From the NCBI RefSeq assembly GCF_900110485.1, contig NZ_FODY01000006.1:1-64000 (forward strand): DNA of 64,000 nt, given 5' to 3'. Positions 9,616 through 42,530 of this stretch are shown one piece after another. This DNA comes from Propionispora vibrioides. Lineage in GTDB: Bacteria > Bacillota > Negativicutes > Propionisporales > Propionisporaceae. Made by a program: the position numbers and the translations under genes. Position 1 is the stretch's first letter; each line of letters starts with the position of its first letter. The notes under the pieces were generated by a model. That model saw only the letters and a list, made by a program, of their open reading frames with translations, did no database searches and had not been told where the DNA came from.

Positions 9616-10017
9616 CTACGAGGGATTGACCGCTACAGCAATTTTAGTAATGCCAGCCTGTCGAATGGTATCCATCAATTCAATCACATGTCCATGTTCT
9701 GTGTTTCGATCAGCATTGATTATGACTGATGTTTGCTGGCCGTTGCTTTGCTGAGAAAGACACTGCACCACTTCTGCTGGCGAGGCGATTGGTTCTTGAT
9801 CATAAAAGAGCTTATTGTCTTTAGTCAATGTTAAGATATGTACCTGCTGTTTTTCGGTCTGAATACCATTAGCATGCGGCAGGTTGACCGGTAAGCTATT
9901 TTGACTGGTCATAGATAAGGTGGCAATCATAAAAAATACCAAAAGGAAAAACATCGTATCAATCATCGGAATAATCTCAATGTGGGCCTTTTTAGGCGTA
10001 TTTCTTGCTATCTTCAT
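9616..10017 (-). CDS. exbD: ExbD/TolR biopolymer transport protein
   Basis: A 133-residue protein with one N-terminal membrane helix containing the conserved Asp in IPMIDTMFFLLVFFM, through which proton flow is thought to pass, and a periplasmic domain ending in IRQAGITKIAVAV. Together with ExbB and TonB it uses the proton gradient to energise outer-membrane receptors. Its start overlaps the exbB end by 26 bp. Confidence 0.9.
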   Translation of the reverse strand: MKIARNTPKKAHIEIIPMIDTMFFLLVFFMIATLSMTSQNSLPVNLPHANGIQTEKQQVHILTLTKDNKLFYDQEPIASPAEVVQCLSQQSNGQQTSVIINADRNTEHGHVIELMDTIRQAGITKIAVAVNPS

Positions 10018-10618
10018 GCATATCGCTCCTATGTGGCCGTGTGCCTAATACCACTTCCAGCCGGGTTGCGTAGTATTCAATGACTTCCGTCTCTTTCTCG
10101 ACACGGGTTAAAAAATAGTTATATGGAATTAAGCTACTTACAGCAACAAGGATGCCTGCCGCAGTCGCAATCAGAGCTTCCGCCACCCCTCCGGTGATCA
10201 CATGGGGCTGACCTATTGAGCCTACTGCCATTACTTGAAACGAACTGATCATGCCAATAATCGTACCTAATAATCCTAAAAGCGGTGATAGGGTAATAAT
10301 GGTATCCAATACCGGTAAGCCGCGTTTTAGGATGGTAATTTCAGCTATGGCTGCTGCTTCCATGGCTTTGACGGGATTACTTATATGCTCAATTCCTGCA
10401 TGTAATACTCTTAGCAACGGCGCTGCATCTACATTGCTCAGTCGGGCCGCTTCCTCCACCTGCCCCTTTTTTACTAAACTAACAATCTGTTCAGCATAGT
10501 CCGTCGCTGCAATTTTTTTTAAAAACCAGAGTCGTTCTACGATAATTGTAAGAGAAACAAGTGAACAAATGATTAGCGGCACCATGACCCAGCCGCCTTT
10601 GATTATAATCTGAAGCAT
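9992..10618 (-). CDS. exbB: ExbB/TolQ/MotA-family proton channel
   Basis: A 208-residue inner-membrane protein with three membrane segments (about 8-28, 105-130, 150-172) and the family motif around LSPLLGLLGTIIGMISSF followed by GGVAEALIATAAGILVAV. It forms the pentameric channel that houses ExbD. Second gene of the tonB-exbB-exbD operon; 52 bp separate it from tonB. Confidence 0.9.
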   Translation of the reverse strand: MLQIIIKGGWVMVPLIICSLVSLTIIVERLWFLKKIAATDYAEQIVSLVKKGQVEEAARLSNVDAAPLLRVLHAGIEHISNPVKAMEAAAIAEITILKRGLPVLDTIITLSPLLGLLGTIIGMISSFQVMAVGSIGQPHVITGGVAEALIATAAGILVAVSSLIPYNYFLTRVEKETEVIEYYATRLEVVLGTRPHRSDMHEDSKKYA

Positions 10619-10670: not shown

Positions 10671-11381
10671 TTACTGCCAATCGTCCAACCGGAATTTTAC
10701 CCGCACATCATAATAACTTTCTACTGCTGTCGAGCCGTAGCGTGCTGGTGCAAAGCGCCATTTTTTCACTGCCCGCATTGCCGCTTCATCAAGAGATGCA
10801 CAGCCGCTGCTTGTCAGCACCACTACGTCTACAGCCGAGCCATCAGTGCTAACAAGCGTCCGGAGTACGACAGTTCCTTCTTGGCCTGCCCTGCGAGCAT
10901 CCAGTGGATAGACAGGACGCGGGCCGGAAATGTATCCAGGTTGTGAGCGGATAATGGAACGATTTACCGGACCATTGACTGACGGTTCGTTAACGTCACC
11001 ACCGCTGGCTGCTGTTACTCCCTCTGTCGTTATTTCATTAGCAGTTGCAGATACTGCGCTTGTCTCATTTGCTCCCGACTGCTGGCTGCTTTTAGCTGGT
11101 GCTGTTTTTTGGTTTACAATACGTCCCTCCAGTTTAGTCTGCTGCTCGGATGATTCAGCCTGTCGTTCGAGTTGCAGTGCGGCAGGTGCTGGTGAAGAGT
11201 TAACTTTATTCAGGCTATCTCCCTGATCAACCACATTCACCAAGGCAAATTCCACTTCGATAGGTGAGATAACCGCAGGCGGCGTAAACATACCGCTGTA
11301 GCCAATTGTTAAAATACCGATCAGTACAGTATGAATAGCTAAAGATATTCCGGCTGCCTTGCTATAAGGGTGTTTTATCAT
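10671..11381 (-). CDS. tonB: TonB energy transducer
   Basis: A 236-residue protein. It has an N-terminal membrane anchor (about 12-32), a long S/T/A/Q-rich periplasmic linker (about 40-150) in place of the usual proline-rich one, and a C-terminal TonB domain (about 155-235) with GYISGPRPVYPLDARRAGQEG and the terminal WRFAPARYG. It transmits force to the TonB box of outer-membrane receptors. The ATG at 11381 is preferred to the GTG at 11390 because AGGGAG is properly spaced only for the former. An E-type leader element lies upstream. Confidence 0.88.
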   Translation of the reverse strand: MIKHPYSKAAGISLAIHTVLIGILTIGYSGMFTPPAVISPIEVEFALVNVVDQGDSLNKVNSSPAPAALQLERQAESSEQQTKLEGRIVNQKTAPAKSSQQSGANETSAVSATANEITTEGVTAASGGDVNEPSVNGPVNRSIIRSQPGYISGPRPVYPLDARRAGQEGTVVLRTLVSTDGSAVDVVVLTSSGCASLDEAAMRAVKKWRFAPARYGSTAVESYYDVRVKFRLDDWQ

Positions 11382-11623
11382 CGCACGCACTCTCCCTAAT
11401 ATTCTTTTACAGCGGCACTAGCTTATAAATAGATAACTGTAGAGAGATGCGCTGAGCGACCTCTACAAAAAGTACGGGCTAGGTTTTTCCATTCTTAACG
11501 CATAGCTGCAGGGTGTACCATTAAACACCAATACGCCATTTTATTAACCAAATTTTCTGTTGGTCAAGTTATTAATTTATCGCATAATTTCAACAATCAA
11601 GTAAACTAGGTTATGGCTAGTCC

Positions 11624-11679
11624 AAAGGCCAGGACCGTAAAACATCAGTCCTGGCCTTTAGTTTTCTATTAATCAGCCA
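11624..11679 (-). promoter_or_regulatory. Leader element E1 upstream of tonB
   Basis: On the minus strand GGCTGATTAATAGAAAACT is followed by a 12-bp perfect hairpin AAAGGCCAGGAC / GTCCTGGCCTTT. The block closely resembles E2 at 13795-13859 in both sequence and layout. No T tract follows the stem. It lies between the receptor stop and tonB and may also serve as an end for the receptor transcript. The surrounding region 11382-11719 has no other gene. Confidence 0.55.
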
Positions 11680-11719
11680 AACGCTATATTCGACCATATA
11701 AAAGAATGTGTAAAGCTAA

Positions 11720-13675
11720 TTAATACCTATAGTTTGCCTTTACCCAAATAGTACGGCCCGGTTCGTTTACTCTAAAGGAAGAAACGATGCCCAGCGCCGG
11801 AATTGAAGCGCCCGAACGGCTAATAAATTCGGCATAATTCTTGTCAAAAATATTATCCACACCGGCAGCAATCGTAATCTCCTTACTGGCTTTATAGCCC
11901 ACATTAGCCGAAAGAATACCAAAGCCGCTGCTTGCTCCCAAATCATAGCCGATTTCACTGCCGCTGTTTAAATCATAGCGAGTTTGTGCCTGAACGCCGC
12001 GCCACAACAAGCCGGCTTCTAACTTCTCATGACTGTATTTGAGACCTAACGTTCCTTCCAGCGGTGGAACCTGAGCCAAGGGTCGATGATCCGAATCATT
12101 ATTGCCCCGTACATAAGCCAGGGAAGCGGTGACCGTCCAATTTTTATTCAGCAAATAGGCCGCATCAATCTCGCCGCCATACAATGAGGCATCGATATTC
12201 TCTGCCGTCTTGCTTGACGAGTCATTGGCATTTTTAAATAAAATAAAATCATTAATATTGGCGTAAAACACCGACAAACTGCTATTCAGTTTACCGGAAC
12301 GATAAAGAAGCCCTGTGTCAAGCTGGGTGTTCTTCTCCGGCTTCAGGTAAAAATTAGTGTTCCGTTCCCAGTAATCAGCCGGCCGCTGGGCATGACCAAG
12401 GCCGATATATGTGGTAACCGGTGCGTTGGCGTGATCATGTTCATAGCGCAGGAAAGCGCCGTAAGTGCGATCATGGCCTTCCGCCGCTGTTTCTTCATCT
12501 TTTACGTCCAGGCTGTCGGTCCGGAATCCGGCCAACAGACGGCTGTTCTTCGCTAACTGGTGCTTAAACTCGCTGAATAAGCCGTAATTGGTAAACGTCA
12601 AATCACGGGACCAGCTTGTATATCCCATTCCCATATTGCTTCGTCCGGCATGCTCATTCTTTTGATAATCCAACCCTACCGTTGCTGTCGTAGTCTTCCC
12701 CAAATTCAAATCTGCCGCTAACCGTCCCCCATTGGTTGTCCGGTCAACTTCCATCGCCATTGGCATCATAGCACCAGGCCGCAGCGAATAGTTATCCATC
12801 ACATGGTCCACATAGTTATGAAAGGCTTTGAATTCCAGGTTACGCACCACCGGTGATATGTTTTTCTTATTGAATTTAAAGCTGTAATCATTGCGGTCAA
12901 ACCGGGGGCCGTCCATTGACCGGCCGCCGTAAGCCGCCTCGGCATCACTGGTCTCGGCCGTAAATTCGTACAGGGTATCGGCATCAGGCGTCCAGCCAAA
13001 GATGCCGGTCAGGCTCTGCCTGGTATAGAACGAATGAACCTTATTGCCGTTACCGTCGGTATAATCATCGGCATTGGAGTGGGTTTTTATGATCCGCACA
13101 TAGCCTTTGGTATCACCGGCCGTAATGTCCAACAGCTCATCATCACGACCGTTGCTGCCGAACAGTAGGCTGCTGTTGACACGAACGTCCGGTTTGTCAA
13201 ACCGCTCCGTCTCCCGGTCAAACAATACCGTCCCAGCGACATTGCCGCCACCGTATTTGACCGTTTCCGGTCCTTTTAAAATTGTGATCTTGCTGTACGA
13301 TTCGGGGAAAACATACGAGGTAGTGGGGTCCATCCGGCCGGGGCAGGCGCCAAACTGATAAGTGCCATCCAATAAAACATTAAGGCGCGTTCCTCCCAGC
13401 CCCCGGAAAACCGGATCACTGCCTGTCCCACCCTGACGGGCCACGGAAAACCCGGGAATATTTTTCAGATAGCCGCTGCCATCAGCCGCCGGCACCGGCT
13501 GTTTGGGCGACTTGGGGTCGGTTTCCACCGTCAGGGGATCACTCACCGCTGGCGCGGTAACCACAATCTCATTCAACGTAAAGGTTGTCTTCTCCTCATC
13601 TTCCGCCAAAGCTGGCTGTGTATTGGCAGATAATAGCAATAGAGAAGAGGCAACTAGAGTCCGTACTTTTTTCAT
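11720..13675 (-). CDS. TonB-dependent copper-type receptor (OprC/NosA-like)
   Basis: A 651-residue outer-membrane beta-barrel with a signal peptide (1-24), a TonB box (TLNEIVVTAP), a plug domain (about 40-165) and a C-terminal barrel ending in WVKANYRY (aromatic last residue). The plug has the motif FGACPGRMDPTTSY and KITILKGPETV seen in the copper-receptor subgroup (OprC/NosA), rather than siderophore or B12 receptors; copper specificity is therefore inferred from family. It is monocistronic, divergent from the secreted proteins at 14.3 kb, with leader element E2 ahead of it. Confidence 0.85.
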   Translation of the reverse strand: MKKVRTLVASSLLLLSANTQPALAEDEEKTTFTLNEIVVTAPAVSDPLTVETDPKSPKQPVPAADGSGYLKNIPGFSVARQGGTGSDPVFRGLGGTRLNVLLDGTYQFGACPGRMDPTTSYVFPESYSKITILKGPETVKYGGGNVAGTVLFDRETERFDKPDVRVNSSLLFGSNGRDDELLDITAGDTKGYVRIIKTHSNADDYTDGNGNKVHSFYTRQSLTGIFGWTPDADTLYEFTAETSDAEAAYGGRSMDGPRFDRNDYSFKFNKKNISPVVRNLEFKAFHNYVDHVMDNYSLRPGAMMPMAMEVDRTTNGGRLAADLNLGKTTTATVGLDYQKNEHAGRSNMGMGYTSWSRDLTFTNYGLFSEFKHQLAKNSRLLAGFRTDSLDVKDEETAAEGHDRTYGAFLRYEHDHANAPVTTYIGLGHAQRPADYWERNTNFYLKPEKNTQLDTGLLYRSGKLNSSLSVFYANINDFILFKNANDSSSKTAENIDASLYGGEIDAAYLLNKNWTVTASLAYVRGNNDSDHRPLAQVPPLEGTLGLKYSHEKLEAGLLWRGVQAQTRYDLNSGSEIGYDLGASSGFGILSANVGYKASKEITIAAGVDNIFDKNYAEFISRSGASIPALGIVSSFRVNEPGRTIWVKANYRY

Positions 13676-13794
13676 CCATCATCACCATTCTTATTTAATT
13701 CTTTTTAGGCTAATTCAGTTTCCCACTTGTTACGACAAACTATATGTTTTATTCATGTCCCCCTTTCATCGCTAAACCAAACGTTACTGCCTGG

Positions 13795-13859
13795 CAAAAA
13801 AATAAAGGCCAGGTGTTCTTAAAGAACAGTCCTGGCCTTCAGTTTTTACTAATCAGCCC
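13795..13859 (-). promoter_or_regulatory. Leader element E2 with terminator, upstream of the receptor
   Basis: On the minus strand GGCTGATTAGTAAAAACT is followed by AAGGCCAGG ... CCTGGCCTTT and then seven T residues, a strong intrinsic terminator 120 bases before the receptor start. It implies attenuation of the receptor gene. A TATAAT occurs upstream at about 13890. Confidence 0.6.
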
Positions 13860-13920
13860 TATTTATTTATTCTAACCGTATTATTGATTATATCCTTTTA
13901 CTTTGAAATAGAATACCATA

Positions 13921-14109
13921 CTAAAGTACTAATTAATTATCTATAAACACTAAAAACAGTCATTTATCTCCTGCGCTTGTTAATATATTATTTATATTTT
14001 AATTTGCAATTTGACCCATAAGTATCACTGACAAACCGAGAATAGTACTTTTAGACAGCATCAATAGTACTTTAGGGTAATTGACATGATAAAAATATAG
14101 TTTTAATAT
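13921..14109. promoter_or_regulatory. Divergent control region with TAGTACTTTAG sites
   Basis: The 11-mer TAGTACTTTAG occurs at 14065-14075 (plus) and 13931-13921 (minus), with a 12-base variant TAGTACTTTTAG at 14043-14054. The plus promoter is TTGACA (14081-14086), 17-bp spacer, TAATAT (14104-14109), directly after the 14065 site. The sites face both divergent transcription units, as expected for a shared regulator. Confidence 0.6.
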
Positions 14110-14119
14110 AAATAACATA

Positions 14120-14184
14120 GTTGATTAGCAACGGGCTAAAGGCTACAAGGGTCATTCGACCTTTGTAGCCTTTAGTGTTTTTCC
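14120..14184 (+). promoter_or_regulatory. Leader element E3 with terminator, upstream of 14332
   Basis: GTTGATTAGCAACGGG followed by the stem CTAAAGGCTACAA / TTGTAGCCTTTAG and TGTTTTTCC. The predicted transcript start is about 14116, so the element forms the 5' end of the mRNA and ends in a terminator 150 bases before the first gene. Confidence 0.6.
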
Positions 14185-14331
14185 GGCACAGGCGGCATCC
14201 CGCAAGAAAAGGCAAGCTTGACTGTGAACACCGGTAGCTGTCAGCCAAGAACACTCATTTTTATTAAGGAAGGACAACTGTTGCTTTCATCAGCCGGTGC
14301 ATAATTTCAACAAAAATAAGGAGGCTTTACA

Positions 14332-14796
14332 ATGAAAACTCGTATTCTGCTGATATTAACGTTATTTTTAACTCTCACGCTAATGCCAATCTACGCTCAC
14401 GAGAGTCCTGCCACCGATTCTGTTTCCGGCGGGCACGACGGCACTACATCACTGCACGCAAAAATTGACCAGTTTTTAAAATCAGTGTCTGATAATCATT
14501 CTTTTGTTGTGTCGCTAGATAGTAAAACGGCCACTGACCTCCTGCTGGATGTACGCGCAGCAGAAGATTTCCAGAAATCACCGGTCAAAGATGCCCTGAA
14601 TGTACCGCTTACTGATTTACATGATCATATAAAAGACTTACCCAAAGACAAGCGCATATTGGTTATTGGCGATCCTGTGGACGGGGCGTACGCCGTCTTT
14701 GTCTTACGCTTGCACAGCATAGACGGCTGGCTGGCAAAAAGCAGCGAAGCAACAGGCGGCTGCCCACTGATGGAAGCGCATAAAAAACATCACTAA
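14332..14796 (+). CDS. Secreted rhodanese-fold protein without catalytic cysteine
   Basis: A 154-residue protein with a signal peptide (1-21, ending YAHE). A rhodanese-like domain covers about 55-145 (LLLDVRAAEDFQKSPVKDALNVPL, then DKRILVIGDPVDGAYAVF). The loop that normally carries the catalytic Cys reads VIGDPVDGA, so sulfurtransferase activity is unlikely. His-rich ends (HES, GGHDG, and GGCPLMEAHKKHH with one Cys) suggest metal binding in the periplasm. AAGGAGG precedes the ATG. The location opposite the copper-type receptor supports a metal-related role; this is inference. Confidence 0.65.
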   Translation: MKTRILLILTLFLTLTLMPIYAHESPATDSVSGGHDGTTSLHAKIDQFLKSVSDNHSFVVSLDSKTATDLLLDVRAAEDFQKSPVKDALNVPLTDLHDHIKDLPKDKRILVIGDPVDGAYAVFVLRLHSIDGWLAKSSEATGGCPLMEAHKKHH

Positions 14797-14807
14797 CAGG
14801 TTTTAAC

Positions 14808-14846
14808 AACGCATAAAGAAGGCCATGCAGCCATTCTTTATGCGTT
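14808..14846 (+). terminator. 13-bp hairpin after the rhodanese-like gene
   Basis: Perfect stem AACGCATAAAGAA / TTCTTTATGCGTT with a 13-base loop; only a short T-rich tail follows, so termination may be partial. Confidence 0.55.
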
Positions 14847-14923
14847 ATTCCACATCCGAAGCTCACTTCGCCAAGACGTTTCTTGCTGAATAATAAAAAC
14901 CAAGTGTAAGGAGATTGGCAAAA

Positions 14924-15280
14924 ATGAAAACTCATTGCTTTATCGCATTGCTCGTCACATTTATCCTGGCCGGCTTTTCCTCCACCGTTTTTGCCACCGG
15001 CCAGGAGATCACCATTGTAAATGCCAGTAATTCCGACCTCTATGATTTATCAATTACGCCAACTAACAGTACTGCCCAGGGACCAAACGCCTTAAATGGG
15101 CAAGAACTACTAAACGGGCAAAGCAGGCGAATTGTCTTTCCTAATTATGACACCGGTGTTGTACAATGGGATATGTGGGGAATTACCTGTTGCGGTGAAA
15201 AAGTGAAGTGGCAACAGCTTAATTTAACTATAGCGCATACGATTATCTTACGCGAAGGCGGCCTTGCCGAATTGAATTGA
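14924..15280 (+). CDS. Small secreted protein of unknown function
   Basis: A 118-residue protein with a signal peptide (about 1-24, ending VFATG). The mature part looks all-beta: ITIVNASNSDLYDLSITP, SRRIVFPN, VQWDMWGITCCGEKV, LNLTIAHTIIL. A CC pair lies in the last third. I do not recognise the family with confidence. It resembles small periplasmic beta-sandwich proteins whose central strand carries WD near a charged turn. ATG at 14924 is used because AAGGAG lies 10 bases ahead; the in-frame TTG at 14915 would sit on top of it. It is followed by a strong terminator. Confidence 0.6.
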   Translation: MKTHCFIALLVTFILAGFSSTVFATGQEITIVNASNSDLYDLSITPTNSTAQGPNALNGQELLNGQSRRIVFPNYDTGVVQWDMWGITCCGEKVKWQQLNLTIAHTIILREGGLAELN

Positions 15281-15322
15281 TGTTTTGGCAAAACCGCCGC
15301 CACTTATTGCCTGAACGTACAG

Positions 15323-15365
15323 CGCTGCCTCATGATAGTTTTCGAACTATTAAGGCAGCGTTTTT
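15323..15365 (+). terminator. Intrinsic terminator after the small secreted protein
   Basis: CGCTGCCT / AGGCAGCG outer stem, ATAGTT / AACTAT inner stem, then TTTTT. Confidence 0.8.
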
Positions 15366-15515
15366 AGATCTAAAGCGGAACGATTGCTACGCCCTTTCCC
15401 GCGCTAAGCACCTGCCGGCTGCAATGCAGTTGCCGCATAATGCCAGCCATTGCTCCTATTGACAAAGGACTTATCTGCGTATTACATCCTGCTTACCTAC
15501 CTTGGAGGTATCCGT

Positions 15516-16370
15516 ATGCATACTACTCAAATGAAATGGATCGCAGCCATCGTACCGGCTATCTGCATCGGCCTGTTCGAATTCGCCAGGCACGAATTTT
15601 TACACGTTATTTCGATGGATTGGGGCAATGTTTTGGTAGCTGTACTGACGGGGATCATCTTTATGCTATTTTCTCACGGCATTTTCACCTTGATGGAAAA
15701 TCTTTACGGCAAACTGCAGCAGGAAAAGCAGGAAACAGCCGTATTGCAGGAGCGGTACCGGATTGCCCGCAATTTACATGACAGTATCGCCCAATCATTA
15801 TTTTTTATGAATGTAAAAATAATGGATATCGAAAGAGCTTGCCAAAATCGGCAGGAACCATGGACGGCAATTAAGGATTTGCGTGAAGCTATCCGCTTTG
15901 CCGATACCGAACTACGGCAGCATATTTTTGCCTTGCAAACCGTGGCTGCGGAGGACAACATTGATCTCATCGCCGCCATGCAGGATCACTTACGCCAGTA
16001 CGAAACGCAAACCGGCACGAAAGTCAATCTAGCTATCACTTGTGCTAAGAAAATTCCCTTTAGCTCCTATGAGCGAAAACAACTGTTCCATATCTTTCAG
16101 GAATTATTATTCAACATCCGCAAGCATGCTGCAGCCACACAGGTGAATGTCAGCTTAAGTGAACAAAGCGAAGCCTTTACCCTGTCAATCGCCGACAACG
16201 GGAAAGGATTTGTAGCGGCAGAAAATCTTCGTCAAAAAAAATCTTTCGGCTACAAACTATTGGAACAGGATATTCAATCCATCGAGGCTGACCTTCAACT
16301 TGTCAGTATTCCGGGTGCCGGGACTACTGTAACAGTTACGAAAAAGAAGAAAAAGGAGCTGCCGTCGTGA
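15516..16370 (+). CDS. NarX/DegS-type sensor histidine kinase
   Basis: A 284-residue kinase. It has two N-terminal membrane helices (about 8-28 and 40-62), a short coiled coil, a HisKA_3 dimerisation domain with the phospho-His in RNLHDSIAQSLFF, and a HATPase domain with N box NIRKHAAAT and G box SIADNGKGF. There is almost no periplasmic loop, so the signal is probably sensed in or at the membrane. The ATG at 15516 has GGAGG six bases ahead; an upstream in-frame ATG at 15450 has none. Its stop overlaps the GTG start of the response regulator. Confidence 0.85.
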   Translation: MHTTQMKWIAAIVPAICIGLFEFARHEFLHVISMDWGNVLVAVLTGIIFMLFSHGIFTLMENLYGKLQQEKQETAVLQERYRIARNLHDSIAQSLFFMNVKIMDIERACQNRQEPWTAIKDLREAIRFADTELRQHIFALQTVAAEDNIDLIAAMQDHLRQYETQTGTKVNLAITCAKKIPFSSYERKQLFHIFQELLFNIRKHAAATQVNVSLSEQSEAFTLSIADNGKGFVAAENLRQKKSFGYKLLEQDIQSIEADLQLVSIPGAGTTVTVTKKKKKELPS

Positions 16371-17005
16371 CTATTCGAGTATTAATCGTTGACGATCACT
16401 TTCTGTCACGCAGGGGAATCGCCAGCATTCTTTCGGCCAATCCTTTGTTTGAAGTCATCGGCGAAGCAACCACAGGAACTGAAGCGCTGAAAAAGGCGAC
16501 ACAGCTGGTGCCGGATCTTATTTTGATGGACATCCGCATGCCGGACGGTGATGGATTAGAAGCTACCGGCAGGATTAAATCAACCATGCCGCATATAAAA
16601 ATCATCATTCTGAGCGTATCGGACGACGTCCAGGACTTCTTCGAAGCCATAAAACGCGGCGCCCAGGGATATTTACTCAAGAATATGGAACCAGAATACT
16701 GGTTGGATTATATTATCAGCATTGTGCAGGGTGAAGCTCCCATATCCCGGGTGCTGGCAGCCAAAATACTGCAGGAATTTGCCGGACAGAAACAGGCAGT
16801 TCCGGATAGCAGACTGTCCGAGCGTGAACAAGAAGTACTGCAGCTAATTAGCCAAGGGCTTAGCAATAAAGAAATCGGAGAAAATCTATATCTTAGTGAA
16901 AGCACGGTAAAAAACCATCTACGCAGTATTCTGGATAAACTCCATTTGCAAAACCGGATGCAATTGATTGCCTTTGCTTATAAAAATCGGCTGGTTGGCC
17001 ATTAG
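16367..17005 (+). CDS. NarL/LuxR-family response regulator
   Basis: A 212-residue protein with GTG start in a GTGA overlap with the kinase. It has a receiver domain (about 4-120) with VDDH near residue 8, the phosphoacceptor Asp in LILMDIRMPDGDG, and a conserved Lys in YLLKNM. A LuxR-type helix-turn-helix follows (about 148-205: LSEREQEVLQLISQGLSNKEIG). It is the partner of the upstream kinase and the best local candidate for binding the TAGTAYTTTAG sites near the copper-type receptor and the 17-kb unit; that link is inference. Confidence 0.88.
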   Translation: MTIRVLIVDDHFLSRRGIASILSANPLFEVIGEATTGTEALKKATQLVPDLILMDIRMPDGDGLEATGRIKSTMPHIKIIILSVSDDVQDFFEAIKRGAQGYLLKNMEPEYWLDYIISIVQGEAPISRVLAAKILQEFAGQKQAVPDSRLSEREQEVLQLISQGLSNKEIGENLYLSESTVKNHLRSILDKLHLQNRMQLIAFAYKNRLVGH

Positions 17006-17020
17006 CTTGCATAAAGAATT

Positions 17021-17060
17021 CTAAAATACTATTTGATTACTAGAGAAAATATTATATGAT
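17021..17060 (+). promoter_or_regulatory. Promoter with a TAGTATTTTAG site before the 17-kb unit
   Basis: CTAAAATACTA at 17021-17031 is the complement of TAGTATTTTAG, one base from the 14-kb sites. TTGATT (17033-17038), 16-bp spacer and TATGAT (17055-17060) form a promoter whose start would be just before leader element E4. Confidence 0.5.
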
Positions 17061-17072
17061 TATCATAACTAA

Positions 17073-17129
17073 GCTGATTGGAATAACCCGAAGGCTGAGC
17101 GCAACCAATGCGTTCAGCCTTTTACTTTA
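17073..17129 (+). promoter_or_regulatory. Leader element E4 with terminator
   Basis: GCTGATTGGAATAACCCG followed by AAGGCTGAGCGC / GCGTTCAGCCTT (12 bp, one G-T pair) and TTTACTTT. Same layout as E1-E3, just before the small membrane protein at 17162. Confidence 0.6.
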
Positions 17130-17161: not shown

Positions 17162-17371
17162 ATGACATTAGGGAGATATTTCATTGTAGCTGCTATTATT
17201 TTCTTTATCGGTTTAACCGCCTTGTATGTCGGCGTAAACCGTCCTCCTTTCCGCCAGACGCCACAGCAGGAGCATACCGGTAACCACCATGGGACAGCAC
17301 CAACAGAAAAAACAACGGCAGACGAAACACTCTGTCCAGCACCGATCCTGCAGCCAAAAGAAAAATCTTAA
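17162..17371 (+). CDS. Small membrane-anchored protein
   Basis: A 69-residue protein with one N-terminal membrane helix (about 5-26) and a polar tail containing GNHHG and CPAP, so probably anchored with the tail outside. Function unknown; His and Cys could bind metal. GAGGAG lies ahead of the ATG at 17162; the longer frame from 17108 would cross the terminator stem. It is the first gene of a unit with the DUF4418 and ABC transporter genes. Confidence 0.6.
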   Translation: MTLGRYFIVAAIIFFIGLTALYVGVNRPPFRQTPQQEHTGNHHGTAPTEKTTADETLCPAPILQPKEKS

Positions 17372-17389
17372 CTAAAGGGGTTAACAGAT

Positions 17390-17812
17390 ATGAACTATGA
17401 GAAGATTTTAGCCTGGGTGGTTCTACTTCTTAGCATGGGACTTTTACTCCTACCAAGAATCATTCCAATTTGCACAGGACTTGCCGGCGGCAAACCGATG
17501 ACCTGCCATTATACTTACCAGGCGGAATTTCTGGTGACCTTGCTTGCCGTGATTGTCGCCGGCAGCCTGTTTGCGCTGCATACCGCTGAGGCCCGCCTAC
17601 TGAGCGGATTTATCCTCGCACTCCTGGGCGTAATCGTGGTGGTATTGCCGCAACCATGGGCCATTGGTTTATGCACTTATGGTAACTGCCAAAAAACTGC
17701 ATTCTTTTCCGTATGCGGCGGTAGCCTATTGACTTTGACCGGAGCGGCAATCGCCTGGTATAGCTCCAGAAAAATACAAACCGATCCAGAAAATTGGGAG
17801 GACAATGCATGA
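17390..17812 (+). CDS. DUF4418-family membrane protein
   Basis: A 140-residue protein with four predicted membrane segments (about 5-25, 45-63, 68-90, 107-125). The short loops carry Cys residues (PICTGLAGGKPMTCHYTYQ and GLCTYGNCQKTAFF), a pattern typical of DUF4418 proteins that sit beside FtsX-type ABC permeases. Function unknown; the paired Cys suggest a redox or metal role. AAGGGG ribosome binding site. Its stop overlaps the permease start (ATGA). Confidence 0.7.
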   Translation: MNYEKILAWVVLLLSMGLLLLPRIIPICTGLAGGKPMTCHYTYQAEFLVTLLAVIVAGSLFALHTAEARLLSGFILALLGVIVVVLPQPWAIGLCTYGNCQKTAFFSVCGGSLLTLTGAAIAWYSSRKIQTDPENWEDNA

Positions 17813-19008
17813 AGTCGCTGATTTTGAAAAGCCTGCTGCACCGAAAATTGCAAAGTCTGGCCATTGCCATATCCATTGCATTCGGCATCGCTATTATTTT
17901 TGCTATTGCGGCCATCTATCAAGGTGTACATTCAGGCATGGAGCTTTCCAAGCAACGGATGGGTGCCGATATCGTGGTCATCCCTGGTGGGGTAACCATG
18001 GAGCCCAGTTTATATCTGTTTGGCGGTGCAACGGTGAATACCTATATGCCAAAAGAGACCTTCGACATATTAAGAAAACTGCCGGGGGTGACCAAGGCCA
18101 CTCCTCAGTTTTTTACGCATACGCTCACAGCCGACTGTCACGACATCGGAACAAACAATCGGATGCTCGGCTATGATCCGGACAGCGACTGGATTCTTCA
18201 GCCGTGGCTGAAAAAAATCAATAAAAACTGCCTGGCTGACGATGAAGTCATACTTGGAGCCAAAGTGCCAACTTGGACACAGGATAAAATATCTATTCTA
18301 GGCAAATGGTACAATATTGTAACTATTGCCGAGGAAACAGGCACTACTCTGGATTATTCCCTGTTTGTCAGTATGGAGGAAGCACGGCGGGTAGCCGGTA
18401 GCAGTTCGCAGCTCCAATCGGTTTGGGCAAACGAAGGTAATCCGACGGGCCTGATCTCTTCGGTACTGCTACAAATTGATCCCGCAGTAAAGGCGAGCAG
18501 TATCGTTGACAAGATTCAACAGATCGGCTACTTTCAGACTATTGTCGCAGCGGAAGTGAAACAGCGCATTATCGATCAGTTCACCATACTGGTGTACCTG
18601 TTGGGCAGTGTAGGTGCATTAACTGCTATATTATCACTATTTCATCTATTTACCCGTTTCTATGCACTGACCTGGGAACGGCAGGCGGAATGGGGATTAT
18701 ATCTGGCTATCGGTGCCTCCGCCCTGGACCTCGCAGCCCTGATTGTGGGTGAGGCTGTAACAGTTTCCCTGATCGGTTCGGTATGCGGAATAGCATTGGG
18801 CAGTCTTTTGTATGTCGGTGGCCTGCACATCCTCCAGTATTACCAGTCTTTTCCGTTTATCCAGCCCTCCTGGCAGTTTTTAACAGCAACAGCCCTCCTG
18901 CTAGTTGTCAGCTTCTCGGGACTGGGTGCACTGGCCGCCTGGCTGCCGGCCTATCGAGGCAGCCAAATTGATCCGAGTACGATTATGACTCGCGGCGAAT
19001 TCGATTAA
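17809..19008 (+). CDS. FtsX/MacB-type ABC transporter permease
   Basis: A 399-residue permease. One N-terminal helix (about 17-40) is followed by a large extracytoplasmic MacB_PCD domain (about 45-265) and three C-terminal helices (about 270-385) of the FtsX module. The periplasmic part has GADIVVIPGGVTMEP and LGYDPDSDWILQPW, features of the subgroup found with DUF4418. It pairs with the ATPase at 19054. Such pumps act on substrates in the membrane or periplasm (lipoproteins, heme, peptides) by mechanotransmission; the substrate here is unknown. The ATG at 17809 has GGGAGGA ahead. Confidence 0.82.
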   Translation: MKSLILKSLLHRKLQSLAIAISIAFGIAIIFAIAAIYQGVHSGMELSKQRMGADIVVIPGGVTMEPSLYLFGGATVNTYMPKETFDILRKLPGVTKATPQFFTHTLTADCHDIGTNNRMLGYDPDSDWILQPWLKKINKNCLADDEVILGAKVPTWTQDKISILGKWYNIVTIAEETGTTLDYSLFVSMEEARRVAGSSSQLQSVWANEGNPTGLISSVLLQIDPAVKASSIVDKIQQIGYFQTIVAAEVKQRIIDQFTILVYLLGSVGALTAILSLFHLFTRFYALTWERQAEWGLYLAIGASALDLAALIVGEAVTVSLIGSVCGIALGSLLYVGGLHILQYYQSFPFIQPSWQFLTATALLLVVSFSGLGALAAWLPAYRGSQIDPSTIMTRGEFD

Positions 19009-19053
19009 TCGGCTGTTGTGAAAGTCAGTAATTTATTTTCAAGGAGGAGTTCC

Positions 19054-19734
19054 ATGTCAGCCATTTTGGCAGTTCATCACATTCATAAGAATTATGACGA
19101 CGAGAGCATTTTAACGAATATTTCCTTTACGTTGGAGACGGGAAGATCATTGGCGATTACCGGGCAGTCGGGCAGCGGCAAGACCACATTGCTTTCGATT
19201 ATTGGATTACTGCAGCAGGCAACTTCAGGACAGATAGTAATAGCCGGACAAAACACCGGTAGTTTAAGCCCAAAACAGCAAGCCCGGCTACGGGCCACTT
19301 ATTTGGGTTTTGTCTTTCAGCGCTCCCGGCTAATTAATTCGCTGACCGCCTATGAAAATGTCGTTGTTCCCGCCTATTTTGCCCGGACGGGCAAAAACGC
19401 CGATAAACGCGCCCTTGAGCTACTGACTGATTTTGGCCTTGAGCACCGGCTGAATCACCGTCCCCAGGAACTCAGTCTCGGCCAGTTAAGACGGGTGGCT
19501 CTGGCTCGGGCCCTGCTGCTTAATCCTAAAATCCTGTTAGCGGATGAACCGACAAACGACCTTGATCCCACTCTGGCCAAAGTCGTGACAGACAGTCTGT
19601 TTCAAGCCCGCGACAACGGCAGTACCGTTATTATTGTCACCCATGACCTTGAACTGGCCGAGCGGGCTGATGCCCGACTTCATTTGCAGCAGGGCCGGCT
19701 AACTGTTCCAGATGTGACAACAGATTTGGCCTAG
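19054..19734 (+). CDS. LolD/MacB-type ABC transporter ATPase
   Basis: A 226-residue ATPase with Walker A (GQSGSGKTT), Q-loop (FVFQRSRLI), signature LSLGQLRRVALARAL (LSLGQ rather than LSGGQ), Walker B (ILLADEPTNDLD) and H-switch (VTHD). It powers the upstream permease. The ATG at 19054 follows AAGGAGG, 45 bp after the permease stop. Confidence 0.88.
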   Translation: MSAILAVHHIHKNYDDESILTNISFTLETGRSLAITGQSGSGKTTLLSIIGLLQQATSGQIVIAGQNTGSLSPKQQARLRATYLGFVFQRSRLINSLTAYENVVVPAYFARTGKNADKRALELLTDFGLEHRLNHRPQELSLGQLRRVALARALLLNPKILLADEPTNDLDPTLAKVVTDSLFQARDNGSTVIIVTHDLELAERADARLHLQQGRLTVPDVTTDLA

Positions 19735-30424: not shown

Positions 30425-31300
30425 TTAGTTCATCCGGGTCAGCTTTCCACCGTACTCCTCAATTTTTGACTTCCAATAATTTTTCAATTCTTTCTCGGGC
30501 ACATAATATTCCTCTTGCTCATATCCAATTCGCTTTGCTTTAGAAACACCCATTTTGTGATAAGGCATCACTTCAATAGCAGCTAAATTTGGATATCGTT
30601 TGCACATATTTGCAATACCTCTGAGATGTTCTTCACTGTCGTTGACTCCGGGAATCAACGGACACCGTAGAACGATCTTTGCGCCACGCTCGTAAAGGCA
30701 GTGTAAATTCGCAAGAATCAGTTCATTGGAGACTCCCACCAGCTTTTTATGTGTCTCTTCACTGGTTGCCTTATAATCCCACAAGAATGTGTCGATATAG
30801 GGCATAATTTGGATGTAATTTTCCAAGGCTGAAAACCCGCTTGTTTCCAACGCCGTCATGATTCCTTGCTCTTTTGCCAGCTTTGCCAGTTCGATGGCAA
30901 ACTTCGCCTGCAGCATCGGCTCTCCTCCGGAGATGGTCATACCGCCTCCAGAGGATTTAAAATAACGTGCGTCCTTGACCACTTCCGCGACCACTTCTTC
31001 TGCGGTCATCAGTTCACCCACAAGACGTAAGGCCCGATAGGGACAGTGACGTGCCAAATCCCGCTTCTGATCATCGCTCAACTTTTCAGTACTTTTTATA
31101 TCCCTATAGATATGTCCGCACCGACCACAATGGGTACAATTCCGTTCGTAATATTGCAAACCAATACCGCAAGACAAGCCTTCGGGATTATGGCACCAAA
31201 GACAGCGCAACGGGCACCCCTTAAGGAATACATTGCTTCGTATTCCAGGGCCATCATGAATTGAAAAATGCTGAATTCCAAAGACTAATCCCTTTTCCAC
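30425..31300 (-). CDS. Glycyl radical enzyme activase 1 (radical SAM)
   Basis: A 291-residue radical SAM enzyme that installs the glycyl radical on GRE-1. The SAM cluster motif CX3CX2C is in GCPLRCLWC. The ferredoxin-like insert has CTHCGRC and a later HCPY, giving only one set of cluster cysteines where most dehydratase activases have two. GGGMTISGGEPMLQ is the conserved GGE region. The GTG at 31300 lies two bases after the GRE-1 stop, using GGAGAG inside the GRE-1 end, so the two are translationally coupled. Confidence 0.88.
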   Translation of the reverse strand: MEKGLVFGIQHFSIHDGPGIRSNVFLKGCPLRCLWCHNPEGLSCGIGLQYYERNCTHCGRCGHIYRDIKSTEKLSDDQKRDLARHCPYRALRLVGELMTAEEVVAEVVKDARYFKSSGGGMTISGGEPMLQAKFAIELAKLAKEQGIMTALETSGFSALENYIQIMPYIDTFLWDYKATSEETHKKLVGVSNELILANLHCLYERGAKIVLRCPLIPGVNDSEEHLRGIANMCKRYPNLAAIEVMPYHKMGVSKAKRIGYEQEEYYVPEKELKNYWKSKIEEYGGKLTRMN

Positions 31301-31302
31301 AA

Positions 31303-33702
31303 TTACTCTCCGTACATTGTCCGAGTCAAAATTTCTTTCTGCAGGGTTCGATCCAAATCCACGAAGAACTCGCAATAACCACCGACGCGAACGATCAGGT
31401 CTCTGTGCTTATCGGGATGGATCATTGCGTCCTGCAAATCTTCGGCATTGGTGGTATAGACCTGAATTTGTGGACCACCATTGTCGATATAGGTTTTCAA
31501 CACCTGCTTCATGGCGTTCCTGCCGGAATCATCCGCAAAAAAAGAGGGATTCATTTTAAAGCTTAACGCAAACGCACCTGTAATCTTGTCTGCCTCCAGC
31601 GCCAGTACAGAATTCAGAAGCCTTGTGGGACCATTGACATCCATCCCTTGACTAGGTCCCATACTGTCACTGAAAGGTTCGCCCTTTTTACGTCCATTTG
31701 GTGTCGCCTTAGCGATCTCGCCGTGGTAGATGTGGAAGAAATATCCGAACAAAGTGGACACAAACACATCACCCATGCCCCGCTTGTTCAGTGCAGAAAC
31801 CTGCTGCGTGAAATAGTTCAGGACTTCATTTGCCACTTTATCAACATCACTCTGATCATTGCCATAATGCTGACCACACTCAATCAGCAGATTGCGTTCG
31901 TATTCATAGCCCTCGAAGTTCGCGTTTAGCACTTCGTTCAGATGCTCTAAGGTCATGCTTTCGTCTTCAAAGATAACCTTTTTGACTGCATACAAGGAAT
32001 CCGCCGCAGTCCCGATGCCATAGGCATACACCGACCATTCCATAGGCAACTCAGCGCCGCCTTGTAGCATATCTTTACCATTTTCTATGCAGCCATCAAT
32101 TAACAGGGAAGAATAGGGATCGAAGCAGCGATTCTTCATATTTGCTTTCTTCTGAACAGCTTCCTCGAAGTCCGCTTCGATTGCGGCATTCAATTCCGCC
32201 TTGTAAGCATTCATATAATCGTCGAAAGTATTGATCGTACAGGTTCCTTCAGCATACTTGCGCATGACCTCTTCAATCAACACTGGGAACGCAATAGATT
32301 CGCAAACACCATAACTGGGCTGTTTTCCGGGAACTTCCAGTTCTACGCAACCCATGTTGTAATAATCATTTGCATTTTCCTGAGAGAAACCCAGGCTCAT
32401 CAGGCTGGGAACCCATATCTCATCGTTCAACAGCATGGGCTGACCGGAACCGGCAGCTGTGGTGTTGATTGCTTCATCATACAGCCAGTCAGGATTCTTC
32501 CGGTTGATGCGCAGTCCAATATTAGGATAAGGCACACGCAAATCGGCAGCCACCTGCAGACAAATTCTGGTTAGGTCATTGGCTGCATCGTTGCCTTCTC
32601 TGTCGACGCCACCCAGAGTTACGCTTTCCACGGTTCTCATTCTGGGCTCGTTTACCTTCAACCAGACGCACGCGAGCAGATCTTTCGCAAAATCTTCGGT
32701 AATTTCGCCAGCGTCCAGATCCTTTTTATAGAAAGGATACAGATATTGGTCGATGCGCGCCAAAGACAAAGCAGAGCCGCCCTGGATATTGGCAATGATG
32801 TGCAGCATCCACATCAGTTGCGTTGCTTCATAGAAGTTCGATGCCGGAGCTTCCGCAACGGTATCCAAAATCTCGGCCATCCGCTTCAGCTCTTCGGAGC
32901 GTTGCAAGGTAACAGCGGCAGCTTCGCTTTCAGCACGGGCCGTTTGCGCATAACGGCGGATAAACGCAATGGTCGCGTCCGCCGCGATGACAGCAGCCTG
33001 ATAATATTCCTTTTTGTCTGCATCCTCAGCCGCCTCATACAGAGCCTGCACCTGATTGCGTGTGGCCTTCAGCCCTACCTTGACAATCCGCTCATAATTC
33101 AGACTGATATGGTTGCCGATAAAATAGGGAAGCGAATCAAATAGCTTTTTGTCTTCACTATCGTACTCAATTTTGAAAGAACGCTCCAGTTCGCGGCCAA
33201 TTTCATAAGGCTCAATGTCCTGGCCCTGATACCGTTCCTTCATCTCTGCGATTGTGCCCTGTAGATCATCGTAAGGAATCGAAGCGTCCTGGTGAACGCG
33301 GGCCATCAGCGACCAGCGGCTCTTTTTACTGCCAAAGTTCTCTTCAAAGCTCTTGACATGACCTTCAGCAAATTCGATAGTATGACTAATATTTTTTTTC
33401 CTCTTTTTGTCCAAATAGGTCTCGATGATCTGAATAGCTTTTGCCCGTCGCTCATCTTCGGATAAAATATCCTTTTTCAAAGGACACTGACCAAGCATAG
33501 TGCCAGTAATCAGTTCATAGGGAAAAACGACTTGCGTTGTTCTCTCCATAACGTTCTGAAAGGCTTTTGCACGACGAATCTGGATCGGTTCCCCCACGGT
33601 TTTCCTCAGCGATTCACCAACGTATTCGTACAGTCTCTTTTCACGTACGCCCTTGTTCAAATCCAGGATTAAAGTTTTTAGATTTTCAATTCTCTGATTC
33701 AT
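31303..33702 (-). CDS. Glycyl radical enzyme 1 (eliminase/dehydratase type)
   Basis: A 799-residue GRE with a PFL-like N-terminal domain and C-terminal Gly_radical domain. The active-site Cys452 lies in MGCVELEVPGK, with Glu454 (CxE, the mark of C-O/C-N/C-S lyases; PFL has CC). The radical glycine is Gly775 in RVGGYCEFF. SLARIDQYLYPFY and LLNDEIWVP resemble E. coli YbiW and PflD, reported to open 1,5-anhydrohexitol 6-phosphates, and polyol dehydratases. The operon context (glucitol-type PTS, DeoC) points to a polyol phosphate as substrate; exact reaction unknown. GGAGGAG precedes the ATG. Confidence 0.85.
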   Translation of the reverse strand: MNQRIENLKTLILDLNKGVREKRLYEYVGESLRKTVGEPIQIRRAKAFQNVMERTTQVVFPYELITGTMLGQCPLKKDILSEDERRAKAIQIIETYLDKKRKKNISHTIEFAEGHVKSFEENFGSKKSRWSLMARVHQDASIPYDDLQGTIAEMKERYQGQDIEPYEIGRELERSFKIEYDSEDKKLFDSLPYFIGNHISLNYERIVKVGLKATRNQVQALYEAAEDADKKEYYQAAVIAADATIAFIRRYAQTARAESEAAAVTLQRSEELKRMAEILDTVAEAPASNFYEATQLMWMLHIIANIQGGSALSLARIDQYLYPFYKKDLDAGEITEDFAKDLLACVWLKVNEPRMRTVESVTLGGVDREGNDAANDLTRICLQVAADLRVPYPNIGLRINRKNPDWLYDEAINTTAAGSGQPMLLNDEIWVPSLMSLGFSQENANDYYNMGCVELEVPGKQPSYGVCESIAFPVLIEEVMRKYAEGTCTINTFDDYMNAYKAELNAAIEADFEEAVQKKANMKNRCFDPYSSLLIDGCIENGKDMLQGGAELPMEWSVYAYGIGTAADSLYAVKKVIFEDESMTLEHLNEVLNANFEGYEYERNLLIECGQHYGNDQSDVDKVANEVLNYFTQQVSALNKRGMGDVFVSTLFGYFFHIYHGEIAKATPNGRKKGEPFSDSMGPSQGMDVNGPTRLLNSVLALEADKITGAFALSFKMNPSFFADDSGRNAMKQVLKTYIDNGGPQIQVYTTNAEDLQDAMIHPDKHRDLIVRVGGYCEFFVDLDRTLQKEILTRTMYGE

Positions 33703-33833
33703 AAATTCTCCTCCTAAACAGATTTGGTAAAACGTATCTCAAGGGGGGGCACGAACCTTCTGCTTGTTCAGCCCCAACTATCTTTGAATCTGCTGCCAAT
33801 CATAAGCAGATCTTTCGATATTGATCATAAATT

Positions 33834-33908
33834 TGTTTATCTATAAACATATTACAGCCAGATATGTTTGTCGTCAAGCATTATAATGCGAGTTCTTATA
33901 AATAAACA
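33834..33908. promoter_or_regulatory. Operator sites between GRE-1 and the DeoR gene
   Basis: Perfect inverted repeat TGTTTAT-CT-ATAAACA (33834-33849) and a further half-site ATAAACA (33902-33908). Placed in the divergent 320-bp region, they are candidate sites for the DeoR-family regulator. Confidence 0.5.
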
Positions 33909-34024
33909 GATTATTTCTTTACGCCTTTGATCACTCATGATAAAATACAAATAAATTAAGAATTTTTCTATTCATACTTAGACATTGTTATGAAATGCCA
34001 ATGGATCAAAAGGAGAATTTGTTC

Positions 34025-34792
34025 ATGGTCGAAAGAATTGAATATATACTGAATAAACTAGATGAAACCGGCGTACTAAATGTGAATGAATTGGCTGAAG
34101 AGCTCAAAGTGTCTTCGGCAACTATTCGAAGAGATTTTGCGGATCTCGAAATACAAAGAAAATTGAAGCGAATCCCGGGAGGCGCTATTAAGCCACTTGA
34201 CAGTTCTATTGTTACATTAGATTCAGATTTAAGAATGGCCAGTAAGCTACAATTGAATAGTTCCGGTAAAAAAATGGTATGTGAAATGGCTTGTAAAGAG
34301 GTTCGTGATGGCGAGTGTATTTTTATTGATGCAGGAACGTCAACGGTGCATATGTTCAAATTACTACAAGATCGCCTTATCACCATTGTGACGAATAATT
34401 TTTTGCTCTCATCTCAGATTACACCGCCAATTACAGCTCGCATTATCGTTGTAGGTGGATTATATTTGGCAGACTATGCACTGACATATAGCTCTACCGC
34501 TATCAATGAAATACAAGGTTACAATTTCGACCGTTGCTTTATCACTTGCGCCGGAGTTGATATCCACAAGAATTTCTCATACTCCACAGAAATTGAAACG
34601 AGAAATCTCAAAAACCTTGTATGTCAGAGATCTAAGTACCGCTATTTACTGCTTGATCAATCAAAGTTAGATACGATTGGATTTTGCACCTTAGAACCGC
34701 TGACCTCTTTTGATACTGTTTTCTGTGATCAAAAAAGAGAAGACATGGAATATCCGGATAATTTCCGCTTTTACCAGTCAATTTCGAATTGA
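34025..34792 (+). CDS. DeoR-family regulator of locus 1
   Basis: A 255-residue regulator with an N-terminal DeoR helix-turn-helix (about 5-58: VNELAEELKVSSATIRRDFADL) and a DeoR sugar-phosphate-binding C-terminal domain (about 75-235: CIFIDAGTST, TNNFLLSSQI, VVGGLYLADY). Divergent from GRE-1, so probably its repressor with a phosphorylated intermediate as inducer. ATG at 34025 follows AGGAG; the longer frame from 33995 lacks a site. Confidence 0.85.
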   Translation: MVERIEYILNKLDETGVLNVNELAEELKVSSATIRRDFADLEIQRKLKRIPGGAIKPLDSSIVTLDSDLRMASKLQLNSSGKKMVCEMACKEVRDGECIFIDAGTSTVHMFKLLQDRLITIVTNNFLLSSQITPPITARIIVVGGLYLADYALTYSSTAINEIQGYNFDRCFITCAGVDIHKNFSYSTEIETRNLKNLVCQRSKYRYLLLDQSKLDTIGFCTLEPLTSFDTVFCDQKREDMEYPDNFRFYQSISN

Positions 34793-35189
34793 CAATTATC
34801 ATTTTCAACTTTATACATTCATATCTATTTAAGAGATTGTGAAAGGTGAGAGGAGCAAGAATTATGCACAAGGTCTTAATAAAAGCACAAAAAACCTTTG
34901 TATGATCCAAGAGATAACTCTGGATAATACAAGGGCTGTAATGATATTCCCCTTCTTTTTTTATTATCTTTATTAGCAATGAGCAACCGAATAACAGATT
35001 CTCACAGTTTAATTGAAGACATCTCCATGTCCTTTCTGGTTTAAATTTACGTGAGAACTAAGTCATAACATAGAATGGGGGGATTACCCCTATTTTTTTA
35101 CATTTATTCTTTGTTAGAACGAATTGTCCTTACTTGACGACCGTCTAATTGCCTCCGCCAAGAGTGGCACCTTCAATTTAAATCCGGCG

Positions 35190-35560
35190 AAGTGTTCCTA
35201 CATCGGCTTAATCCAAGGTAAGGTCAGGCGGCAAGGTTCCGTCCCGGCCCATACCGAAGAGTATCCTCGCTATCACGGCTTGAGCCGATATCGCGCAGGT
35301 CAGACTGGCCAGGTTGCCGATCCAGAAGTATAGCGGCTGCATATAATCAGCCTGAAGCTACAGAGACATCGAAAAACCCGTATTAGGATTGGCAATCTCC
35401 TTCCAGCTTGACGGCCAGGCAATTTGGCAAAAGTAGGCAACCAGTAATTCCTCTGGTCGGCAGCCACCAACAACCACTCGACCGACCGGGTCCTTAACAC
35501 AGTGGAGACACAGGCTTCCGGCACATCGGAACTTCAGTCGTTGACGGCGGCGGCTCAGTA
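35190..35560 (-). pseudogene. Remnant of an APC-family amino acid permease
   Basis: One minus-strand frame reads LYFWIGNLASLTCAIS followed by VIARILFGMGRDGTLP, the typical helix 8 and RxxxxMGRDGxLP loop of APC permeases. Stops and frame breaks surround it, and the rest of the ~450-residue gene is missing. Confidence 0.6.
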
Positions 35561-35934
35561 TTTTTTTTGAATACGGTCAGGACAAAAGTGCAGCAACATT
35601 CTTTTTGAATGGCACTGCTTTCATTTCATCGCCCACCTTTAACATTTCACAATAATTAACTCAATTCTTCTAACAAAATCTAGCCAGCTTGATTAATGCA
35701 TTGAGCAAAAGCACCAAGGACATCGGCGACGTGGACATCCCGCCGATGTCCTGAAAAAATAACTGGCAAATAAAAGAGGACTCGGTGCGGCCGAGGGCTT
35801 ACTGCCACATCCGAAAAATAGCCTCGCACACAGTTGTATCGGCGCACCAACGCGAAGGGATGGCAGGGAACATTCCCGACCATCCCTTCGTAAAACAACC
35901 GGCCATTTTTTTGTCCTTCAAAACTTTGATTTAT

Positions 35935-35972
35935 AACAAAAAACGGCTTTCAGCTTATGCTGGCGCCGTTTT
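35935..35972 (-). terminator. Terminator of the mannose-type PTS operon
   Basis: On the minus strand AAAACGGC...GCCGTTTTTTG with an inner CAGC/GCTG pair, 57 bases after the EIID stop. Confidence 0.75.
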
Positions 35973-36028
35973 CTGTGACAAAACCTGCTTCTAAAATTCA
36001 ACCATAGTATTTATCAGCTAAATCATAC

Positions 36029-36847: not shown

Positions 36848-36849
36848 AA

Positions 36850-37620: not shown

Positions 37621-37634
37621 CAGAAACTCCTCCC

Positions 37635-38111: not shown

Positions 38112-38124
38112 TTTCTCACCTCCT

Positions 38125-38526: not shown

Positions 38527-38578
38527 GACTTATTCTCCTTTCTATCCCCACATTTTAAGATCGTACACTCATTTATTA

Positions 38579-38594: not shown

Positions 38595-38667
38595 TATGAC
38601 TTATCAAAAAAAACCTTATATTCTCTATGGTTTAAGACTACACATTTAACCCAAGCCAAACCGCACA

Positions 38668-42515: not shown

Positions 42516-42530
42516 TTACATCACTCGCTA

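Follow-up and report, generated by a model that had tools for sequence, protein, structure and literature searches.

A putative antitermination leader of sulfur-related genes and a TonB/copper region in Propionispora vibrioides, with DUF2292 as the candidate effector

The window, i.e. the whole stretch of DNA that was analysed, comprises 64,000 nucleotides of the Propionispora vibrioides contig NZ_FODY01000006.1. Four units in its TonB/copper region are preceded by copies of one leader element, called E1 to E4. The genes behind them are:

9616-10618: exbB/exbD-like genes, after tonB
10671..11390, minus strand: tonB, unit of E1 (PF03544, E 6.2e-22)
11720..13675, minus strand: TonB-dependent copper receptor (OprC-like), unit of E2 (TIGR01778, 691 bits with a cut-off of 472; OprC in PDB, E 6.5e-168)
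14332..14796, plus strand: rhodanese-like exported protein, unit of E3 (PF00581, E 1e-5)
17162..19734, plus strand: small membrane protein, DUF4418, FtsX/MacB-like permease and ABC ATPase, unit of E4

A similar receptor with the leader was also present in loci L112 and L107, and L112 has a leader-bearing rhodanese-like neighbour. Control of E4 by Fur was considered and rejected (no Fur-box match with three or fewer mismatches within the window).

The first-pass annotation had described the element as GYTGATTR, about 10 bases and an AAGGC..GCCTT stem. All four sites were found where it had placed them and the motif was real, but the "10 bases" turned out to be the loop and the 3' half of a hairpin. 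The TTR ending is only one variant and does not hold as a general motif, since the true form is GCUGA-UYRG...CYRA-AGGC and TCA is equally common. The combined pattern GYTGATTR..AAGGC..GCCTTT had five matches in the 4.4-Mb genome (E1-E4 and one more; none with the reversed-pattern control) and was present in 24 of 60 relatives (control matches, 0). GYTGATTR by itself was weak, with 18 occurrences in the window against 11 expected, which is near chance; the significance rests on the combined pattern. Two covariance models were used: R1, built on alignment A2 (40 matched sequences), and R2, which covers the hairpin only (22 nt). R2 retrieved exactly E1-E4 from both strands of the window at E values up to 5. 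The parts of the four copies, named by their proposed roles, are:

11624..11658, minus strand: E1 terminator-like stem AAAGGCCAGGAC..GTCCTGGCCTTT, without T tract (R1 E 2.4e-20; sequence GGCCTTTGGACTAG)
11654..11677, minus strand: E1 degenerate putative antiterminator hairpin GCUGAUUAAUAGAAAACUAAAGGC, between the receptor gene and tonB (R2 19.1 bits, E 0.012)
13795..13839, minus strand: E2 predicted terminator AAGGCCAGGACTG..CACCTGGCCTT and T tract (R1 E 1.2e-20 in the genome; fold -25.0 kcal/mol)
13835..13857, minus strand: E2 putative antiterminator hairpin GCUGAUUAGUAAAAACUGAAGGC, 5' of the OprC-like receptor (R2 25.0 bits, E 2.8e-4)
14120..14143, plus strand: E3 putative antiterminator hairpin GUUGAUUAGCAACGGGCUAAAGGC, 5' of the rhodanese-like gene (R2 22.8 bits, E 1.1e-3)
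14139..14183, plus strand: E3 predicted terminator AAGGCTACAAGGGTC..GACCTTTGTAGCCTT and T-rich tail (R1 E 1.7e-15; fold -34.9 kcal/mol)
17073..17095, plus strand: E4 putative antiterminator hairpin GCUGAUUGGAAUAACCCGAAGGC, 5' of the small gene, DUF4418 and the FtsX/ATPase ABC genes (R2 19.9 bits, E 7.2e-3)
17091..17127, plus strand: E4 predicted terminator GAAGGCTGAGCGC..GCGTTCAGCCTTTTACTTT (R1 E 1.8e-16; fold -24.2 kcal/mol)

Nucleotides 1-23 of E2 were predicted to fold as (((..(((((....))))).))) at -4.4 kcal/mol, with AGGC common to its hairpin and its terminator. E4 was also predicted to form the hairpin (-5.0 kcal/mol). E3 is preceded by TTGACA-17-TAATAT, which ends 10 nt 5' of the hairpin.

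Across 123 distinct copies the consensus was R-GCUGA-UYRG-n4-10-CYRA-AGGC...GCCU-UUUU, with UCAG/CUGA about as frequent as UUAG/CUAA. The hairpin is imperfect and 22-25 nt long. It consists of a 3-bp lower stem (nt 1-3, GCU, with nt 23-25, GGC), an invariant G4-A5/A22 internal loop, a 4-bp stem (P1, nt 6-9 with 18-21) and an A-rich loop of 4-10 nt that varies in length and sequence. P1 covaried freely (U-A/C-G, C-G/U-A, A-U/G-C). Among 100 distinct hairpins 99% of the cells were paired and double changes numbered 107, compared to 29.6 in shuffles; P1 pairing was a selection criterion for this set, and independent P1 covariation was counted in other copy sets. The lower stem by itself showed 10 double changes vs. 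1.6 in shuffles (reached in 0 of 500 shuffles). In a scan that left nt 1-3 and 23-25 unconstrained (218 matches, unfiltered), A1 was present in 10 of the 15 copies with U25 and in 10 of the 203 others (Fisher p 8e-9, an optimistic value given the kinship of the genomes, although the A-U variants were contributed by distinct genomes and genes). Single cases of U-A at 2-24 and C-G at 3-23 were also observed. Alignment A7 omits six outliers of the unconstrained scan, chosen by their letters at nt 1-3/23-25. Most copies were retrieved with patterns or models that included GCUGA and GGC from the start, so the conservation of these letters is partly ascertained, while the compensatory variants are unaffected. 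The covariation supports both the predicted hairpin and the predicted terminator.

The 3' strand of the hairpin, AGGC, doubles as the 5' strand of the terminator. When nt 1-25 were folded alone the hairpin was predicted in 211 of 218 copies; when the full 80 nt were folded, nt 23-25 lay inside the terminator in 213 of 218 (median fold energies -4.9 kcal/mol for the hairpin and -22.7 kcal/mol for the terminator). As GGC is used by both structures, they are mutually exclusive. GCUGA could also pair with UUAGC, the terminator's 3' arm, but this pairing was rejected as the antiterminator, since the arm varies while GCUGA is constant. A T-rich tail follows in nearly all of the 123 copies. A sigma-70-like promoter was detected 5' of 88 of 122 copies, compared to 37 in shuffles, and its -10 box commonly ends 19-30 nt ahead of GCUGA, a spacing that places the hairpin close to where the transcript begins. 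Located between divergent genes, E2 and E3 have no upstream gene to terminate.

About 35 copies were detected in this genome with R1, 22 of them on one strand of a 96-kb contig (C16), where some occur as tandem pairs (56001/55880, 58052/57935, 38507/38294 and 47638/47554). Within the Negativicutes (300 genomes), R1 matched in 110 genomes at E 1e-3 and in 68 at E 1e-9; copies across the class number in the hundreds. Outside the class R1 also reports plain terminators (E 1e-8 to 1e-3), and only strong or contextual matches were counted there; copies were present in Desulfobacterota as well. The matches listed from a pattern scan of named genomes included Pelosinus, Sporomusa, Propionispora, Propionispira, Anaerospora, Heliobacterium, Pelotomaculum and Fontibacillus; about a dozen of the matches listed were chance matches in coding sequence. 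In the same scan at least about twenty assemblies of Candidatus Adiutrix/'Deltaproteobacteria' carried the element. The covariance-model search suggested in the first-pass annotation thus revealed covariation and many further copies. Together with the promoter-proximal position and the exclusive hairpins, this strongly supports its proposal of a shared attenuation device.

The genes behind the element are overwhelmingly sulfur-related, and include cysK, metY, YeiH, NifH/NifB/nitrogenase-like sets, sulfonate and cystine transporters and rhodanese. The first gene after 109 copies was NifH-like in 9 cases, an ABC permease (sulfonate/taurine/cystine kinds) in 9, YeiH in 7, DUF2292 in 6, and a cysK family, NifB-like/radical SAM or nitrogenase-like gene in 5 each; URO-D/MtaA-like methyltransferases and DUF4418 accounted for 4 each, and Cys/Met PLP enzymes and TonB-receptor plugs for 3 each. 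In Desulfobacterota, Heliobacterium and Pelotomaculum the element precedes the same kinds of genes. The nitrogenase-like sets and those with methyltransferases are similar to the systems for organic sulfur treated in PMC10418091. SAM-I riboswitches occur in the same clusters (L086, L330) as separate leaders, indicating that the element is another input. The copper receptor and the TonB genes are an unusual part of this sulfur regulon.

Next, we analysed the distribution of DUF2292 (YezD, PF10055), a small protein linked to sulfur whose genes frequently belong to the regulon themselves. It was present in 67 of the 68 element-positive Negativicutes genomes, and the lone exception is 58% complete. 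Its odds ratio with the element was 342, compared to 3.1 for YeiH, a pathway control that was set aside for its far weaker association. Among the matches listed in the named-genome scan, DUF2292 was present in 23 of the 24 genomes with real matches (the exception is a 1.7-Mb genome) and in none of the 12 with chance matches. DUF2292 is found in 17 of 247 sampled Desulfobacterota genomes. In all of five Desulfobacterota loci picked for DUF2292 only, the gene and the hairpin lay no more than about 2 kb apart; conversely, in a genome found through the element (G627) some 600 bp separate it from DUF2292. At several loci of family f11, no hairpin was visible near the DUF2292 gene. The DUF2292 gene is solitary at the Adiutrix loci that were inspected: it has neither a leader nor neighbours linked to sulfur, as would be expected of a trans-acting factor more than of a gene that is only a target of the element. 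DUF2292 has no recognised RNA-binding domain or fold; its predicted fold is abb-abb (pLDDT 74), and a fold search with it gave nothing informative or above background. No function or RNA target for DUF2292/YezD was found in the literature searched. The co-occurrence could also reflect a shared pathway, and the genomes are related.

Exclusive structures, covariation, the place behind promoters, a sulfur regulon and co-occurrence with DUF2292 were all obtained by computation. They make it probable that the element is a sulfur-controlled antitermination leader in which a hairpin competes with a terminator and the effector is probably a protein, DUF2292 being the best candidate. Termination would be the default state: with no effector the much more stable terminator would form and transcription would stop. 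When sulfur is short, the effector would hold the small hairpin and RNA polymerase would read into the sulfur-scavenging genes. We infer that the binder is a protein and not a metabolite, most likely an RNA-binding protein that would act as LicT/SacY do on RAT, and DUF2292 may be this protein. Of the three effectors named in the first-pass annotation (RNA-binding protein, small ligand or metal), the protein is thus the best supported. Metal or copper fails as the common theme: most copies precede genes of sulfur metabolism and only the receptor is of the copper type.

The antiterminator of the RAT/BglG-LicT-SacY systems is a small, imperfect hairpin that overlaps an intrinsic terminator on its 5' strand and excludes it (PMC3369936). 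Structure prediction and covariation indicate that the hairpin of the element is likewise exclusive with an intrinsic terminator, and a protein is proposed to hold it. However, RAT controls PTS/sugar genes through a CAT-domain protein, while the element precedes sulfur genes, differs in hairpin sequence and internal loop and implicates no CAT-domain protein, no CAT_RBD-PRD gene having been noticed among the loci read; its targets also number dozens per genome, and it occurs in more than one phylum. By analogy, the element would work like RAT, but given the different genes, sequence and likely protein it is not classed as RAT. ANTAR targets have two hairpins with loop recognition, P1 and P2 (PMC3369936). 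A signal-responsive protein that prevents a terminator in a nutrient regulon is common to ANTAR (AmiR/NasR) and to the mechanism proposed here, but the element has one upstream hairpin, in which the internal loop is conserved and the A-rich terminal loop varies from 4 to 10 nt, unlike recognition loops of fixed size. SAM-I (S-box, RF00162) also provides terminator-based leaders of sulfur amino acid genes, but the element had no sequence or structure match to it, and the SAM-I matches were elsewhere, none at elements.

Protein-dependent antitermination by another protein, with DUF2292 as the most faithful member of the regulon, differs from the preferred explanation in the effector only, and we regard it as possible but rather unlikely. 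The protein could be an unrecognised RNA-binding one or DUF2325, which is encoded beside elements in L105, L115, L123 and the C16 contig of this genome and is present in most element-rich genomes. Its profile is nevertheless weaker than that of DUF2292, with DUF2325 missing from eight element-rich genomes (G007, G016, G022, G039, G130, G187, G269 and G348), and the Adiutrix DUF2292 accompanies the element even though it is leaderless and without sulfur neighbours. A very small riboswitch, in which the GA/A hairpin itself binds a sulfur metabolite (cysteine, sulfide, O-acetylserine or similar), would share the exclusive-hairpin architecture and the sulfur regulon, and some riboswitches are likewise known to have tandem copies and an internal loop that is conserved. 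We consider it improbable, as the invariant part is limited to GA/A, the free stems and variable loop leave little room for a metabolite pocket, and a tight link to one protein family would not be expected.

A hairpin acting mainly on translation or mRNA stability, with terminator contexts being secondary, would agree with L325, L332 and L333, where the hairpin precedes or overlaps the Shine-Dalgarno sequence and the terminator is absent, a situation that antitermination does not account for. These hairpins suggest a second, translational use, but in the great majority of copies the hairpin and the terminator use the same bases, and we judge translation or stability very unlikely as the main role. 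It is still harder to see the element as a DNA operator of a sulfur transcription factor: P1 is an inverted repeat just 3' of promoters, but the loop varies from 4 to 10 nt, the arms are free as long as they pair, the distance to the promoter is variable and one arm is common to the terminator. Least probable of all is that ordinary intrinsic terminators or dispersed repeats merely look alike. AAGGC..GCCTT stems with T tracts are indeed common, and R1 picks up such terminators outside the true carriers; yet R2, which is terminator-free, still has no matches in the window other than E1-E4, E2 and E3 are flanked by divergent genes, stem letters change between copies while pairing stays, which argues against a mobile repeat, and the association with genes is specific.

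Comparison with Rfam 15 gave no match at the gathering threshold in the window and none touching the elements with E values of up to 5 (9-20 kb); in other loci there was only a chance overlap with mir-142, far below gathering. No description of the element was found in the literature searched. The hairpin-terminator element would be a previously undescribed family of RNA switches of the protein-type antitermination kind, and it is plausible that DUF2292 is a new class of antiterminator protein. The wider proposal, in which DUF2292 as a new RNA-binding antiterminator class exerts regulon-wide sulfur-starvation control in Negativicutes, other Bacillota and Desulfobacterota, with nitrogenase-like systems for sulfur scavenging and the TonB copper receptor among its targets, is put forward tentatively. 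If true, the element, with about 35 copies in one genome, present in more than one phylum and absent from Rfam, would be a regulon-wide RNA switch for sulfur metabolism; a domain of unknown function, DUF2292, would gain a testable function; and a control point would be available for the nitrogenase-like and methyltransferase systems of anaerobic organic-sulfur scavenging, which are poorly understood.

E1 differs from the other copies of the window. It has one broken (non-standard) pair, its hairpin alone was predicted to be unfolded (0.0 kcal/mol) and it has no T tract, making it the degenerate and weakest copy. It also lies 43 bp past the stop codon of the receptor gene, and E1 may therefore work inside an operon rather than at a 5' end.

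The region from about 18.5 to 94 kb of C16 (G000:C16, loci L085-L089), a contig of the window's own genome, is a supercluster for sulfur scavenging. It contains numerous paralogous sets of the NifH/NifD/NifK-like kind, as well as NifB-like genes, copies of metY/cysK and transporters for sulfonates, and harbours 22 of the leaders, all on a single strand. DUF2325 genes adjoined the element and DUF2292 at C16:94665-94928 and at loci L105, L115, L123 and L329; this repeated adjacency links DUF2325 to the sulfur regulon as a second protein of unknown function. One good element copy was present in a genome without DUF2292 (G375, locus L122), upstream of small genes of phage-like appearance.

At three Desulfobacterota loci (L325, L332 and L333), the hairpin, in some cases doubled, lies immediately 5' of the ribosome-binding site without a terminator, possibly indicating translational control. 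A DUF2292 gene is located upstream or nearby.

The sulfur regulon repeatedly includes an OprC-type TonB copper receptor, accompanied by rhodanese and DUF4418/FtsX ABC genes:

Window 11720-13675, OprC-type TonB copper receptor
L112:9721, OprC-type TonB copper receptor
L107:11402, OprC-type TonB copper receptor

The 15-mer GCATAATTTCAACAA occurs at two window sites, about 11580-11596 (near E1, the element copy between the receptor gene and tonB) and 14299-14315 (near E3, before the rhodanese-like gene). Both copies are on the + strand, and consequently their orientations relative to E1 and E3 are opposite; the recurrence may be due to chance. Window 30425-44807 harbours two glycyl-radical-enzyme and activase pairs alongside regulators of the DeoR type, sugar PTS components and genes resembling aldolases; this region is unrelated to the leader element.
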